Below, piece by piece: positions 4,961 through 12,778 of a DNA stretch of 21,903 nucleotides (position 1 is the first letter of the stretch; every line of letters begins with the position of its first letter). The position numbers and the translations under genes were made by a program. Source of the stretch: a virus; IMG/VR virus record IMGVR_UViG_3300023284_000324, positions 1-21,903 of that record. One strand, written 5' to 3'. The notes below the pieces were generated by a model. That model was not told the DNA's origin. It did no database searches and was given only the letters and a program-made list of their open reading frames with translations.

Positions 4961-4974
4961 CTAAAAGGAGCTTT

Positions 4975-5118
4975 ATGGCAAAGACAATCGAACAAACTTT
5001 GAAGGATTATATGGGTGAATTGATATTCCAAAATATTGTCCTGACACAGAAGTTATCAGAGGCCAAGGAGACTGAGGAGGCCAAGAAAGGAGTAATTGAT
5101 GGCAAAAGTAAATCATAA
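4975..5118 (+). CDS. Small predicted coiled-coil protein (47 aa), unknown function
   Basis: A 47-codon gene begins at ATG 4975 with an AAAAGGAG ribosome site a few bases upstream and ends at TAA 5116-5118. The product begins MAKTIEQTLK, has a hydrophobic heptad-like helix 'ELIFQNIVLTQKLSEAK', and a charged Lys/Glu tail, so a short helical oligomerising protein is likely. Short proteins of this type often follow phage fibre genes, but I cannot assign a function. It lies in the T7 position of holin and small terminase; it has no membrane segment and is too short for a usual small terminase. Its last 20 bases overlap the next gene, and its 3' end carries that gene's ribosome site. Confidence 0.72.
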   Translation: MAKTIEQTLKDYMGELIFQNIVLTQKLSEAKETEEAKKGVIDGKSKS

Positions 5119-5314
5119 TACCAAAGAGCTTGCTATTGCAGCCGCCGTGACTGACGGTGGGGTAGAATATGATGACATCACTGTATATGAACGCCCTGTG
5201 CAAGGACCGCTTCCTTCTACTAAAGAAGCCGTGTACATGATTATACAAGTACGTGCCGAGAAATGGCAAGTGCTCAAGAGCGACGCTTCGGGTGTTTGGA
5301 CAGAAACAGCTTAA
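5099..5314 (+). CDS. Small protein of unknown function (71 aa)
   Basis: I chose ATG 5099 because GGAG at 5089-5092 stands 6 bases ahead; a TTG at 5096 directly before it is in frame but sits too close. The 71 residues begin MAKVNHNTKE and contain 'VTDGGVEYDDITVYERP' and a C-terminal strand pair 'AVYMIIQVRAEKWQVL'. This looks like a compact alpha/beta or beta protein without signal peptide, membrane segment or metal site. It overlaps the preceding gene by 20 bases and precedes the large terminase. The position would suit a small terminase, yet no DNA-binding helix-turn-helix is apparent. I do not recognise it. Confidence 0.65.
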   Translation: MAKVNHNTKELAIAAAVTDGGVEYDDITVYERPVQGPLPSTKEAVYMIIQVRAEKWQVLKSDASGVWTETA

Positions 5315-5338
5315 TGCAGGGTTGGGAATCACACATTT

Positions 5339-8891: not shown

Positions 8892-9719
8892 ATGCCGCCC
8901 GAAGAAACACTTTCGACTAAAGGAGAACCGGAAACCCCGGCCCCAAAAGTTGAAGAGGAACCAAAACCTGCCGAACCCACATGGCGAGACACATTACCCG
9001 ACGACCTCAAAGGGTCAAAGTCGCTGGAAGACTTCAAAGATGTCCCAGGATTAGCAAAATCCTATGTAGAGCTAAAAAAGCACGCTGGCGGATCAGTCAA
9101 GATGCCACAGGCCACAGATGATGCAGAAACCTGGAGTGCGTTCTATACTAAACTTGGCAGACCCGAAGCATCCAAAGATTATCAACTAACCGGAATAGAC
9201 AAACTTGAAGAAGCCGACGTAACCAAGTTTAAGGACTCGATGTTCGGCATAGGTTTATCGCAGCACCAAGCAGACGGGGTTATAAAACACTTCACCGAAG
9301 TCGTCGTACCGCGTTTGGCTGAAGACCGCTGGACACAAGAACGAGGCCAAGCTGCAATTCAGCAAATATGGAAAACTCCAGAGGAAGTGGAGGAAAAATC
9401 GGGGCTAGCCCAACGTGCAGCTAGGAGAATTGGTACTGAATTCGGGGTAATGCTAGAAGAAACCAGTGTAGGCAACCATCCTGTTATGCTTAAATTCCTT
9501 GCGGAGTACGAGTCCACACATAAAGAAGACGGTGGGCCAGGAGGCGGGAGTCATGTTGACAACAGCGGGCGGGAAGCAGCCAAAACCAGGATTGCCGAGA
9601 TAAAGAATGACAGAACCCACCCGTATCACAAAGGCGATAGAGAAGCAACCGCCGAGATGACCGAGCTATACAAGACTGCTGCTGGTGGTACGGGCAGGAT
9701 TTTGTTAGAGGTAGGATGA
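8892..9719 (+). CDS. Capsid scaffolding (assembly) protein
   Basis: 275 residues, slightly shorter than T7 gp9. Scaffold molecules fill the procapsid, drive coat assembly and leave before packaging. The composition fits: a Pro/Glu-rich acidic N-terminus (residues 1-35), then 'LPDDLKGSKSLEDFKDVPGLAKSYVELK' near 34-62, 'WSAFYTKLGRPEASKDYQL' near 79-97, a central helical region rich in Glu and Lys, and a charged C-terminus 'RTHPYHKGDREATAEMTELY'. The 'klGrPe...dYql' pattern is typical of podovirus scaffold proteins. It has an AAAAGGAG ribosome site before the ATG. Its stop overlaps the next start as ATGA at 9716-9719. The order portal-scaffold agrees with T7. Confidence 0.87.
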   Translation: MPPEETLSTKGEPETPAPKVEEEPKPAEPTWRDTLPDDLKGSKSLEDFKDVPGLAKSYVELKKHAGGSVKMPQATDDAETWSAFYTKLGRPEASKDYQLTGIDKLEEADVTKFKDSMFGIGLSQHQADGVIKHFTEVVVPRLAEDRWTQERGQAAIQQIWKTPEEVEEKSGLAQRAARRIGTEFGVMLEETSVGNHPVMLKFLAEYESTHKEDGGPGGGSHVDNSGREAAKTRIAEIKNDRTHPYHKGDREATAEMTELYKTAAGGTGRILLEVG

Positions 9720-9901
9720 ACCAAACTGTTGAACCTGGGGATAGAATCGTTGACAAGTATTTAGAGAAAAACAAACACTTGCCGCAATTCAGAAAAGAAC
9801 CATACAAGGGCGGGCTGATTAAGTTCCGTTTCTGCAAACTGTGTGGTTCTCGACTTACGGCAGGTGAGGAGTTTCGTAACCACATGAATAGGCATGAATA
9901 A
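9716..9901 (+). CDS. Small protein with a classical C2H2 zinc finger (61 aa)
   Basis: The C-terminal 25 residues form a complete C2H2 finger: Cys40-x2-Cys43-x12-His56-x3-His60, with hydrophobic Leu47 and Phe53 at the positions that pack the finger core and a basic helix 'EEFRNHMNRH'. Residues 1-35 are a charged, probably flexible or helical segment ('DRIVDKYLEKNKH'). Classical fingers bind DNA, RNA or protein and are uncommon in phage structural modules; a single finger with a basic lead could bind nucleic acid or a protein partner. The start ATG overlaps the scaffold stop and has a GAGGTAGG-type ribosome site, so it is translated with the scaffold. The function is unknown. Confidence 0.8.
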   Translation: MNQTVEPGDRIVDKYLEKNKHLPQFRKEPYKGGLIKFRFCKLCGSRLTAGEEFRNHMNRHE

Positions 9902-9915
9902 AGGAGGAAATTTTT

Positions 9916-10206
9916 ATGGTTCCAGCAGATTTTAGATCACTAGTATGTGAAAAGTGCGGTGATTACGCCGCTACTTACGGTAAGTTTTGCGGTGATTGTA
10001 TTGTCGAACGCGGCGAGACACCACTAGATTATGACGCCGGGTTAAAGGTGCGTGCGTTACAACGGCAACGCGAAGAGAAAGAAGGCAAAATTACTACTGA
10101 AATGGTAGACCTAGCACACCTTGAAATGGAACAACACAAGGAGGAGTTGGGGGAAGTTGGACCAAAGTTTACTAAAAAGGAAGTGGTGGACAAAGAAGTA
10201 AAGTGA
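9916..10206 (+). CDS. Small zinc-ribbon protein with charged tail (96 aa)
   Basis: Residues 11-28 carry a treble-clef/ribbon-type metal site: Cys11-x2-Cys14-x10-Cys25-x2-Cys28. The rest is a strongly charged helix rich in Glu and Lys ('ALQRQREEKEGK', 'HLEMEQHKEELGE') ending in a Lys/Glu tail. The gene has the strongest ribosome site of the region (AAGGAGG ending 8 bases before the ATG), implying abundant product. It directly follows another zinc-site gene and overlaps the next gene by four bases (GTGA at 10203-10206). No enzyme motif is present. A structural or nucleic-acid/protein-binding accessory in head assembly is inferred from context only. Confidence 0.8.
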   Translation: MVPADFRSLVCEKCGDYAATYGKFCGDCIVERGETPLDYDAGLKVRALQRQREEKEGKITTEMVDLAHLEMEQHKEELGEVGPKFTKKEVVDKEVK

Positions 10207-10547
10207 AAAAACTATTAATGATAGCATTTTTATTTATCGCGTTGCTCGCCGGAGGAAAGGGACTTTGGGCGTCATTAGTCTTCCCTGTCCACACACCCGT
10301 TAACGTAACCACCACAACTACTCAAGTTCTGGCGGCGAAGGCCGGGCGTAAATTCCTGCATTTAATCAACGACTCTGACACGGTGATTTACTGTAAGATT
10401 GACGGCAACCCAGCTATATTGAATGAAGGCGAACGGCTTAACGCAAATGGTGGAAACCTCTTCATGGATATTATCGTACCAGACAAGGTTGTTAATTGTA
10501 TCCATGATGGCACAGGCAACAAAGTGATTCTAGCAACAGAGGGGTAA
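10203..10547 (+). CDS. Signal-peptide protein with decoration-like beta domain (114 aa)
   Basis: Starts at GTG 10203, overlapping the previous stop. The first 23 residues read as a signal peptide or membrane anchor: MKKLLMIAFLFIALLAGGKG, followed by Ala-Ser near 23-24. The mature part is a small beta-sandwich with 'GRKFLHLINDSDTVIYCKI', 'GNPAILNEGERLNANGGNLFM' and 'VVNCIHDGTGNKVILATEG', an arrangement seen in small phage head or fibre decoration domains. The two Cys residues (in 'IYCKI' and 'VNCIH') could form a disulfide after export. The gene lies between scaffold and capsid genes, a place held by no gene in T7. Whether it joins the virion or is exported cannot be told from sequence. Confidence 0.75.
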   Translation: MKKLLMIAFLFIALLAGGKGLWASLVFPVHTPVNVTTTTTQVLAAKAGRKFLHLINDSDTVIYCKIDGNPAILNEGERLNANGGNLFMDIIVPDKVVNCIHDGTGNKVILATEG

Positions 10548-10551
10548 GAGT

Positions 10552-11133
10552 ATGTGGAAAGCGATAGCAACATGTTCTATTATTCTGCTTGCTCTAATGG
10601 CTGTCCAAGTACCCGCAGGATTTCTGGGTGGAGGCGAAGGTGAAACGATTTATGCTCAACTTTCGAGTTCCATAGACCAAGAACCAACAGACACAAATCC
10701 AACAGTCATCACTTACAACATCCAAGATGCCATTAAAGGTCTTACGCATTCAACAACAGTAAATGCAGGGGAGATCACTATAGACACAGCAGGGATATAC
10801 TTCATCTCACCCCAACCGCAAGTTGGCAAAGACTCTGGTGGTGCGAAGGTAGGCTTTGATATGTTCTTGCAAGTTGACAGAGGCTCCGGTTTTGTGGATG
10901 AGGCCAACTCAAACATCAAACTCACCATCAAAGATGCTGATATTACGGATGTTATTATATCTGCATTTGCTGTTCAACTAAACGCTGGAGACAAGTTTCG
11001 TATGATGCAAGTAGTAAGTAATTCTGGTGTTGGCATGGGGTTAAAAAACACCGGCCCGGTAGTGGGACCGCCAACAATGCCACGAACTCCGGCGATAATC
11101 TTTACCATGCACAGAATAGGTGGAACAACATAA
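10552..11133 (+). CDS. Signal-peptide protein with jelly-roll-like domain (193 aa)
   Basis: 193 residues starting at ATG 10552 four bases after the preceding stop. The first 23 residues are hydrophobic ('CSIILLALMAVQVPAGF'), a signal peptide or anchor. The rest resembles a C1q/TNF-type jelly roll: 'GLTHSTTVNAGEITIDTAGIYFISPQPQVG' near residues 63-92, a Gly-flanked 'DMFLQVDRGSGFVDEANSN' strand, 'VQLNAGDKFRMMQVVSNSG', and a closing 'PAIIFTMHRIGG' strand. In phages such domains form capsid fibres, decoration trimers or receptor-binding tips. It forms a pair with the preceding gene (both signal peptide plus beta domain), just before the non-coding leader of the capsid gene. Confidence 0.78.
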   Translation: MWKAIATCSIILLALMAVQVPAGFLGGGEGETIYAQLSSSIDQEPTDTNPTVITYNIQDAIKGLTHSTTVNAGEITIDTAGIYFISPQPQVGKDSGGAKVGFDMFLQVDRGSGFVDEANSNIKLTIKDADITDVIISAFAVQLNAGDKFRMMQVVSNSGVGMGLKNTGPVVGPPTMPRTPAIIFTMHRIGGTT

Positions 11134-11162
11134 ACAATAAAAAAGTAGCGGACTTACGCATC

Positions 11163-11298
11163 GGGCTTGCAAGAGCAGCGGGAGCTTGCAAACAACCCAC
11201 TAACACGCTAGCTAGGCCCTTCTGGATAACTTAGCGCGGGTTTCATGTGACCTTAACACATGGCGTTCTATCCACGATGTAGTAGGTTTCCCCTACTA
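11163..11298 (+). ncRNA. Candidate structured RNA leader, three stem-loops
   Basis: Stem 1: GGG 11163-11165 with CCC 11196-11198, then TTGCAAG 11167-11173 with CTTGCAA 11185-11191, loop of 11 bases. Stem 2: TGGATA 11223-11228 with TATCCA 11269-11274; CGC 11235-11237 with GCG 11263-11265; CATGTG 11244-11249 with CACATG 11257-11262, loop of 7 bases. Stem 3: TAGTAGG 11280-11286 with CCTACTA 11292-11298, loop of 5 bases. These account for 32 base pairs in 136 bases, all canonical. An alternative pairing CGCTA 11206-11210 with TAGCG 11232-11236 competes with part of stem 2, as in a switch. No U-run follows, so a simple terminator is unlikely. An RNase processing site, stability element or regulatory leader are options; I do not recognise a known RNA family. 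Confidence 0.5.
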
Positions 11299-11338
11299 AT
11301 TCGCATTGGATTGGTCAATAGAATGAATACAAACCCAT

Positions 11339-11344
11339 AGGAGG
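11339..11344 (+). promoter_or_regulatory. Strong ribosome binding site of the capsid gene
   Basis: AGGAGG stands 7 bases ahead of ATG 11352, an almost perfect anti-Shine-Dalgarno match at ideal spacing. It fixes the capsid start and suits a protein needed in hundreds of copies per particle. Confidence 0.85.
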
Positions 11345-11351
11345 AATAAAA

Positions 11352-12215
11352 ATGAGTTTTCAAGTAACTGAAACTTTTGTTCAACAGTACGGCGATAACG
11401 TCCTTTTGCTCTCGCAGCAAATGGGTAGCGTTCTTGCTAGTATGGTTCGAACCAAAGACCGAGTAACAGGAAAGCGCGTTTCTTTTGAACGGTTGGCAGC
11501 TACTACGATGCAAAAGCGTACCTCACGGCACGCACCCATGCCTCAAGTAGACAGTGTTCACACTAGACGTTGGGCAAATTTGGAGGAACAAGATTGGGCA
11601 GACCTAATCGACAGCGAAGACGAGCTTAAAATGCTTGTCTCTCTGCAATCTCCATATGCGATCAACGGTGCGTGGGCAGCTGGACGTACTAAGGACGACA
11701 TTCTTATTACTGCCCTGCTTGGTTCAGCCGTAACAGGCGAAGAAGCGGGTGGAACTCAAGCTCTCCCAGCGGGCCAGAAGGTAGCAGCAGCTTCGGCTGG
11801 ACTAACCCTAGCGAAAATCCGTGCGTCGAAGAAAATTAAGAACAAAGCAAATGTTCTTAAAAGCGACCAGGTTTTCGTTCACAATGCAGAGTCCCTTGAT
11901 GACCTGCTTGGTGATTCAACCATTACAAGCGCAGACTTCAACTCTGTGCGTCTGCTCATGAATGCGGAAATAGATACATTCATGGGTTACAAGTGGTTGC
12001 CCACTGAGCAACTTACCATCATCACAGGAACAACTCGCGCAAACATTGCGTTTCAACGTAATGCCATCGGCCTTGCCGTTGGTAGGGACATCACGCCGTT
12101 TGTTGATACCAGAGTCGATCTAGCGGGCAGACCTACCCAAGTCTACATAACCCTTTCTCTTGGTGCAGTACGCATCGAAGACGAGGGCGTAGTCGAGGTA
12201 GCAGTTGTCGAATAA
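11352..12215 (+). CDS. Major capsid protein
   Basis: 287 residues. The location after scaffold, strong ribosome site, and overall pattern identify the coat protein; it resembles the HK97-fold coat family of podophages that lack detectable similarity to T7 gp10. Seen: N-terminal arm 'SFQVTETFVQQYGDNVLLLSQQ', a basic loop 'DRVTGKRVSFERL' near residues 37-49, 'DSEDELKMLVSLQSPYAINGAWAAGRTKDD' in the helix region near 87-116, then 'LTLAKIRASKKIKNK' (spine-type helix) and 'DQVFVHNAESLDDLLGD' of the A-domain, with 'INAEIDTFMGYKW'-like strand, and a C-terminal beta end 'VRIEDEGVVEVAVVE'. No signal peptide. Followed 10 bases later by a decoration-like gene, so the two are probably one transcript. Confidence 0.88.
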   Translation: MSFQVTETFVQQYGDNVLLLSQQMGSVLASMVRTKDRVTGKRVSFERLAATTMQKRTSRHAPMPQVDSVHTRRWANLEEQDWADLIDSEDELKMLVSLQSPYAINGAWAAGRTKDDILITALLGSAVTGEEAGGTQALPAGQKVAAASAGLTLAKIRASKKIKNKANVLKSDQVFVHNAESLDDLLGDSTITSADFNSVRLLMNAEIDTFMGYKWLPTEQLTIITGTTRANIAFQRNAIGLAVGRDITPFVDTRVDLAGRPTQVYITLSLGAVRIEDEGVVEVAVVE

Positions 12216-12225
12216 GGAGTAAATA

Positions 12226-12699
12226 ATGGCTGAAGTTAAGTCTGATGTAGTAACATTACTGGATGGTACAAACCCTTCAACTAATGTTATCGATGTTACT
12301 CTTTTAAAGGGAACTGCGCATATCGCCCCCTTTAACTACGATCCTGGCGCTACTATCGTCGCATCCGGCGATACGGTTCTGCTGACGGAGCTTCCTGCGG
12401 GGGCGCGTGTCTGGGGTATCTATGTTGTCCATGATGATCTTGATGGTGGTGGTTCTACTACTACCTATGACATCGGGGATGCCGTAGATGATGACAGATA
12501 CGTTTCTGCTATTACTGGTGCGGCACAAACTGGTGCCTGGTTAGCCTTACGAAGCGAAGATGCAAATCTCGCTGACAAGGTTCTAGGTATTGGATTTAAG
12601 CATACTGCAGTGACAAGGATTGTACTCCTGGTCAACACACTTGCTTGGGTAGCTGACGCTCAGTTTAGTGGATTTGTCCTCTACAGTTCTATCAACTAA
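12226..12699 (+). CDS. Head decoration-like structural protein (157 aa)
   Basis: 157 residues, beta-rich, no signal peptide. Recognisable pieces are 'HIAPFNYDPGATIVASGDTVLL' near residues 32-52, 'ELPAGARVWGIYVVHDDL' near 54-71 and 'TTTYDIGDAVDDDRYVSA' near 77-94, ending 'AQFSGFVLYSSIN'. This pattern is common in phage structural proteins coded directly after the coat gene. A role in binding or stabilising the capsid surface is inferred from family pattern and position. It has a GGAG ribosome site and starts 10 bases after the capsid stop. A strong hairpin follows its stop. Confidence 0.75.
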   Translation: MAEVKSDVVTLLDGTNPSTNVIDVTLLKGTAHIAPFNYDPGATIVASGDTVLLTELPAGARVWGIYVVHDDLDGGGSTTTYDIGDAVDDDRYVSAITGAAQTGAWLALRSEDANLADKVLGIGFKHTAVTRIVLLVNTLAWVADAQFSGFVLYSSIN

Positions 12700-12708
12700 G
12701 CCTAGTTG

Positions 12709-12763
12709 TAGGTAAGAGAAACCGAGCCTGGGAAGCCGAAACAACCCCCAGGCTCCATACCTA
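12709..12763 (+). terminator. Two-part hairpin after the capsid cassette (terminator or processing site)
   Basis: The inner stem GAGCCTGGG 12724-12732 pairs perfectly with CCCAGGCTC 12747-12755 around a 14-base loop. An outer stem TAGGTA 12709-12714 pairs with TACCTA 12758-12763; the side bulges are 9 and 2 bases. T7 has its main terminator at the same place, directly after gene 10. No T-run follows, so it may attenuate rather than stop transcription, or be an RNase cleavage or 3'-end stabilising site. It could also be a DNA-level palindrome. Confidence 0.6.
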
Positions 12764-12778
12764 AAGCCATTGGAGTTT

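Follow-up and report, generated by a model that had tools for sequence, protein, structure and literature searches.

Structural genes and the capsid leader

The DNA analysed here, referred to as the window, is a stretch of 21,903 bases from the viral record IMGVR_UViG_3300023284_000324. It carries the structural genes of a podovirus which, by family, encode a tail fibre, the large terminase, the portal protein (PF12236), a scaffold-like protein, the capsid protein (PF19821) and tail tube proteins; a DNA-level similarity search of a phage collection with the window yielded no match. A preliminary description of the locus had placed a structured non-coding leader in front of a presumed capsid gene, and the identity of that gene is confirmed by its match to PF19821. 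The same description had referred to the only long gap of the window, which is true in substance, as the longer stretch at 4961-5338, between the tail fibre and terminase genes, lacks a long ORF, holds two ATG-led short ORFs and is not truly non-coding. The features of the capsid region are the following.

11134-11351, + strand: non-coding leader of the major capsid gene, 218 nt between the ORFs at 10552-11133 (193 aa) and 11352-12215; no tRNA found
11163-11198, + strand: unit 1, consisting of outer helix GGG/CCC, C, inner helix TTGCAAG/CTTGCAA and ACAA; recognised by the unit finder, its loop recurring in relatives
11211-11235, + strand: unit 2, consisting of outer helix GCTAGG/CTTAGC, C, CC-TTCT-GG and ATAA; recognised by the unit finder and a covariance model
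11244-11262, + strand: hairpin CATGTG/CACATG
11265-11324, + strand: predicted helix GTTCTAT (11265-11271) / ATAGAAT (11318-11324), enclosing the next hairpin; pair probability 0.93 for the outer five pairs
11280-11298, + strand: hairpin TAGTAGG/CCTACTA; not found conserved
11339-11344, + strand: AGGAGG, the ribosome-binding site of the capsid gene, identified from the sequence
11352-12215, + strand: major capsid protein, PF19821 (E 2.6e-67) / phrog_3437
12226-12699, + strand: probable virion structural (decoration-like) protein, by position and a weak match to phrog_8455 (E 0.0042)
12705-12767, + strand: strong two-part stem-loop closing the capsid unit (z -3.84, 0 of 200 shuffles)

In the window, the region separating the scaffold gene from the leader (9716-11133) contains three or four small ORFs, compared to at most two in annotated relatives; the leader remains with the capsid gene. 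No family match was found for the small ORFs; two of them show Cys/His-rich, zinc-finger-like patterns, and two have signal-peptide-like starts (114 and 193 aa).

Three consecutive stems had been proposed for the gap. In folding of the full 218 nt, the first (GGG/CCC plus TTGCAAG/CTTGCAA) forms with pair probabilities of 0.62-0.87 and the third (TAGTAGG/CCTACTA) with a probability of about 0.97. About half of the interrupted second stem forms in the full-gap ensemble, namely CATGTG/CACATG (about 1.0), while its TGGATA/TATCCA part (11223-11228 with 11269-11274) was rejected, having a probability of 0.01 and being absent from the conserved structure of the relatives. The CGCTA/TAGCG pairing, which had been described as a competitor of the second stem, forms as GCTAGG/CTTAGC with a probability of about 0.5; it is the conserved, minimum-energy pairing of unit 2. 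A two-state switch is accordingly not supported, as the first arm of the switch stem is the improbable and non-conserved one. The minimum-energy structure of the 218 nt contains both units. At the site of the 11244-11262 hairpin, relatives possess, as judged by eye, a differently built hairpin followed by UUAAA.

Folding energy alone was rejected as an uninformative test: the gap is close to shuffled sequence (z -1.53, with 15 of 200 shuffles equally stable), and a smaller piece of it gave z -1.03. The preliminary description had offered two measures by which it might be judged, folding energy and compensatory changes in related phages. As the energy of the gap is near that of shuffled sequence, the observation would fall on the first, whereas covariation decides in its favour. 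Likewise, the statement that the stems are more than chance fails with respect to energy and holds with respect to conserved structure, since none of 5000 dinucleotide shuffles of the gap contains two units.

A conserved RNA unit in capsid leaders

Comparison with relatives demonstrated that the gap carries a conserved structured RNA element, which is a larger finding than first described. In each unit, a wobble pair, C·A or U·G, and a bulge of three nucleotides, Y-A-R or in some cases Y-A-C, connect two helices; the order of parts that recurs in the leaders of relatives is outer helix, C, inner helix, A[CU]AA and again outer helix. One to three copies occur per leader, with loose spacing. In the window, the wobble pair and Y-A-N bulge between two helices are present directly upstream of the capsid gene and on the same strand.

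For the statistical analysis, viral contigs, bacterial genomes and phage records served as sources of capsid relatives, mostly of 24-48% identity, which gave 68 dereplicated leaders. An assumption-free tally of all 1x4 internal loops in these leaders placed C/AUAA, C/ACAA and C/AUAC on top, followed by C/ACAC and U/GUAG, with each leading combination expected at most 0.1 times in shuffles. A unit finder was defined by the patterns C/A-Y-A-(A,C) and U/G-Y-A-(A,G); as it was designed after some of the same loci had been viewed, the unbiased tally, a selection of sites by loop alone and database-wide patterns with a scrambled control serve as its checks. In the usual strand order, it recognised 69 units in 48 of the 68 leaders, where shuffles gave 1.0 and the reverse strand none; the density was 4.2 per kb in leaders and 0.12 per kb elsewhere in the loci. 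Strand-swapped units were found as well (13 versus 1.06 expected), indicating that the motif is independent of which helix bears the hairpin loop. About 20 of the 68 leaders gave no unit when the usual strand order was required, and in several capsid relatives (HTVC010P type, Vibrio 1.257.O) no unit was recognised in the leader.

Among the 16 possible pairs closing the Y-A-N bulge, C·A occurs 31 times and U·G 13 times, each versus about 2 expected, and C-G only once; thus, wobble-pair geometry appears to be required. On a tree of the capsid proteins the C and U kinds are interspersed, at least three changes for the U kind being forced by well-supported branches, and of the two rows nearest to the window, one is of the C kind and one of the U kind. 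The C-type sequence GGATAAC was also considered as a DNA -10-like element; this was rejected, as U-type units (GGGUAGC) do not fit.

Covariation was assessed on 52 sites picked by loop sequence alone, with re-dealt flanks as the control. At these sites the four outer pairs form in 45, 49, 36 and 38 cases, versus 25, 21, 19 and 18 expected, and the occurrence of G-U pairs points to RNA. In 21 gap-free aligned units, 96% of the cells pair, compared to 69%, with 34 double changes and a covariation score of 0.738 versus 0.174, all slid controls remaining at or below 0.1. Each of the four outer pairs in this set shows changes on both sides, while the two inner pairs are invariant because the set was selected for them. 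The search for compensatory changes that had been suggested for related phages was hence passed strongly. Since the loops did not line up with one another in a MAFFT alignment of the leaders, a covariance model of the entire leader was given up in favour of a 21-nt model of the unit. Built without the window, this model found its best match in the whole window at 11213-11233 (E 0.0067), the next having an E value of 0.51. Chance stem-loops in an ordinary gap, with which the near-shuffled folding energy would agree, can hardly be the explanation: this reading is refuted by the unit counts including the two-unit shuffle test, by the overwhelming covariation in relatives and by the scrambled loop, which had no match in the scan described below.

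Linkage to capsid genes and transcription units

Exact-pattern scans of IMG/VR, unrestricted to capsid genes and with some contigs counted twice, gave about 200 sites among the matches listed, nearly all directly before a capsid gene. Sites directly before a gene of the PF19821 capsid family accounted for 45/45, 121/127 and 30/32 of the matches listed for the patterns, and the eight exceptions among them comprise four that reach the contig end (including both of those from the last pattern), one before a truncated capsid gene and three before a scaffold gene. The database-wide scan with a scrambled-loop control pattern returned 0 matches. In the three related contigs with a scaffold gene (L232, L244 and L275), this gene encodes a coiled-coil protein and is followed by a capsid gene of another family (phrog_9953); it is preceded by a U-type unit, with a hairpin resembling an intrinsic terminator immediately upstream. 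In the complete genome of Pelagibacter phage Baldr, the model had two significant matches, both within the capsid leader. Carriers of the element include phages of Pelagibacter, Pseudomonas, Stenotrophomonas, Yersinia, Alteromonas and others.

The initial impression that no known RNA class is represented agrees with the Rfam results: none of the 4227 families matched the window or 27 relatives at the gathering threshold, and four leaders scanned with permissive settings likewise produced nothing credible. No description of the leader element was found in the open-licence literature searched. Structured leaders that act in cis are a known kind of element in phage mRNAs, while this RNA and its loop appear to be new. 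The Rfam scans of the window and of the relatives' leaders also gave no match to a ribozyme family, so a self-cleaving RNA, which had been one of the early suggestions, is not supported. An RNase III-type processing site had been suggested as well, and the hairpins of T7 that are cut by RNase III have asymmetric internal loops, too. However, the conserved inner helices often comprise only 2 bp, as in unit 2 of the window and in many relatives, and are too short for an enzyme that requires about one helical turn or more. Cleavage of either type is therefore unsupported and in our view very improbable.

A promoter-like score was elevated in front of the leaders (mean z 1.09, standard error 0.16), and in many relatives a sigma70-like -10 element ends 5-17 nt before the first unit, the best case being Alteromonas phage ZP6 (L130) with TTGACA-17-TATAAT. 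Ahead of the leader in the window itself, the search gave no sigma70 promoter (z -0.34), although sigma70 may not be the promoter type of the host, and the Pseudomonas relatives likewise lack a sigma70-type promoter before the leader. Of 16 cases checked, including the window, 13 have a stem-loop or intrinsic terminator downstream of the capsid gene or of its accessory gene. This layout suggests that the coat protein has an mRNA of its own, headed by a structured 5' leader, much as in the T7 gene 10 transcription unit with its promoter, 5' stem-loop leader, capsid gene and terminator. The two share the scaffold-capsid gene order, an own promoter (in relatives) and a closing terminator or stem-loop downstream of the capsid gene, and differ in that the relatives use sigma70-like promoters where any are seen. 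To our knowledge, the T7 gene 10 leader lacks a wobble-plus-bulge unit.

Possible roles in capsid expression

The stems vary freely while the loop is fixed, and the units occur in one to three copies with loose spacing, which speaks for a recognition site and not a mere roadblock. A regulatory role in capsid expression is the leading explanation. It might be hypothesized that the capsid mRNA starts with a conserved structured 5' leader holding one to three units, that these units are probable docking sites for a putative RNA-binding protein, and that, bound or unbound, they would set the amount of coat protein in cis via translation or mRNA lifetime, in the manner of T4 gene 32. We regard the core of this proposal, that a protein docking on an operator in cis would determine the translation or lifetime of the coat mRNA, as evenly poised between right and wrong. 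In T4, the gene 32 protein attaches to a structure lying 67 nt ahead of the start codon, from where it extends over the ribosome site (PMC3014915). The units described here end 30-110 nt upstream of the start codon, and so do not themselves cover the ribosome site, which counts against the proposal, as do the leaders in which no unit was recognised and the negative promoter search in the window. In the T4 and RB69 gene 32 leaders, too, a structured element is located some 50-70 nt ahead of the start codon, and marine relatives of the present element also have UUAAA nearby; in contrast, a pseudoknot and an unstructured A+U tract are used there, and a repeated bulged stem-loop before a major capsid gene here (PMC3014915).

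The rivals are ranked with feedback by capsid or scaffold protein first, plain stabilisation second and put-like antitermination third. In autogenous feedback, capsid or scaffold protein would bind the units and repress its own mRNA when assembly lags. The element occurs almost only before capsid genes, at one place per genome where this was checked, and in phages of unrelated hosts, and for such a near-exclusive position across hosts a co-inherited phage protein is the simplest partner. The repeated identical loops would suit cooperative binding, and T4 gene 32 provides a precedent (PMC3014915). However, in the three contigs mentioned above the same unit stands before the scaffold and capsid genes belonging to a second capsid family that is unrelated in sequence, which argues against the PF19821 capsid protein as the only ligand. 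Moreover, we know of no RNA binding by the PF19821 capsid family, which also weighs against feedback, so that we consider it possible but would sooner expect it to be wrong. MS2- and PP7-type operators of RNA phages are bulged hairpins linked to the coat gene, with a single-A bulge. They might serve as a model of recognition, although the coat proteins are unrelated and the operators have no homology to the element. The more specific proposal of an RNA operator that senses capsid assembly, with free capsid or scaffold protein of tailed phages docking on a hitherto undescribed wobble-plus-bulge motif in its own mRNA, we judge unlikely; if true, it would represent a feedback switch on coat supply common to marine, soil and prophage podoviruses.

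Alternatively, the 5' leader and the 3' stem-loop might together confer a long lifetime on the coat mRNA, the parallel being T7 gene 10 between its promoter and terminator. The position of the first unit near the inferred 5' end in many relatives, the strong stem-loop or terminator after the capsid unit (the 13 of 16 cases given above, and the window) and the need for coat protein in the largest amount are all consistent with stabilisation, which we nevertheless hold to be rather doubtful: a mere 5' stem requires no conserved wobble pair and Y-A-R bulge, and here evolution has freed the stems and fixed the loop. With its position just after a promoter and its bulged stem-loops where the transcript begins, the leader resembles the putL and putR elements of HK022 (PMC9378689). 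Nascent put RNA binds the zinc-binding domain of the RNA polymerase beta' subunit. In a put-like processive antitermination the nascent leader would bind RNA polymerase and allow read-through of the late operon, a universal partner of this kind being suited to function across hosts. In contrast to the element, put RNAs belong to early operons and comprise about 70 nt with two stem-loops, while the capsid-leader unit varies in number and spacing, has another conserved loop and was found in leaders of the capsid operon only and not at other operons. In addition, an intrinsic terminator directly follows the capsid gene in several phages. Antitermination thus appears improbable.

Structured regulatory RNAs have rarely been described for morphogenesis genes of double-stranded DNA phages, and the present element is old, widespread and absent from Rfam. 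Should the regulatory role be confirmed, marine phages that are very abundant would have a general point at which the dosage of coat protein is controlled; the unit would provide a small 3D motif of RNA whose definition rests on strong covariation, with C·A exchanged for U·G, and a sequence signature marking the capsid gene in metagenomic contigs.

Additional structures were observed in some leaders. Marine leaders (L014-L036 and similar) have a second conserved hairpin and UUAAA between two units, followed by a small hairpin with a CGUU or CGUA loop, with a partial counterpart in the window. The unit-less leaders of HTVC010P-type Pelagibacter phages (L118, L120, L122-L125) share a stretch of the form GAACCTTACTG...CAAGAAGGAATAGACT...TTTAAAT, which may represent a different leader RNA located partly within the preceding ORF. 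In leaders from Pseudomonas, Stenotrophomonas and Yersinia (L008, L098, L101-L105, L108, L109, L129), a near-invariant GTCGGGAAACCGAC-like hairpin precedes the first unit, in some of them directly after a terminator, and is possibly a promoter or processing signal.
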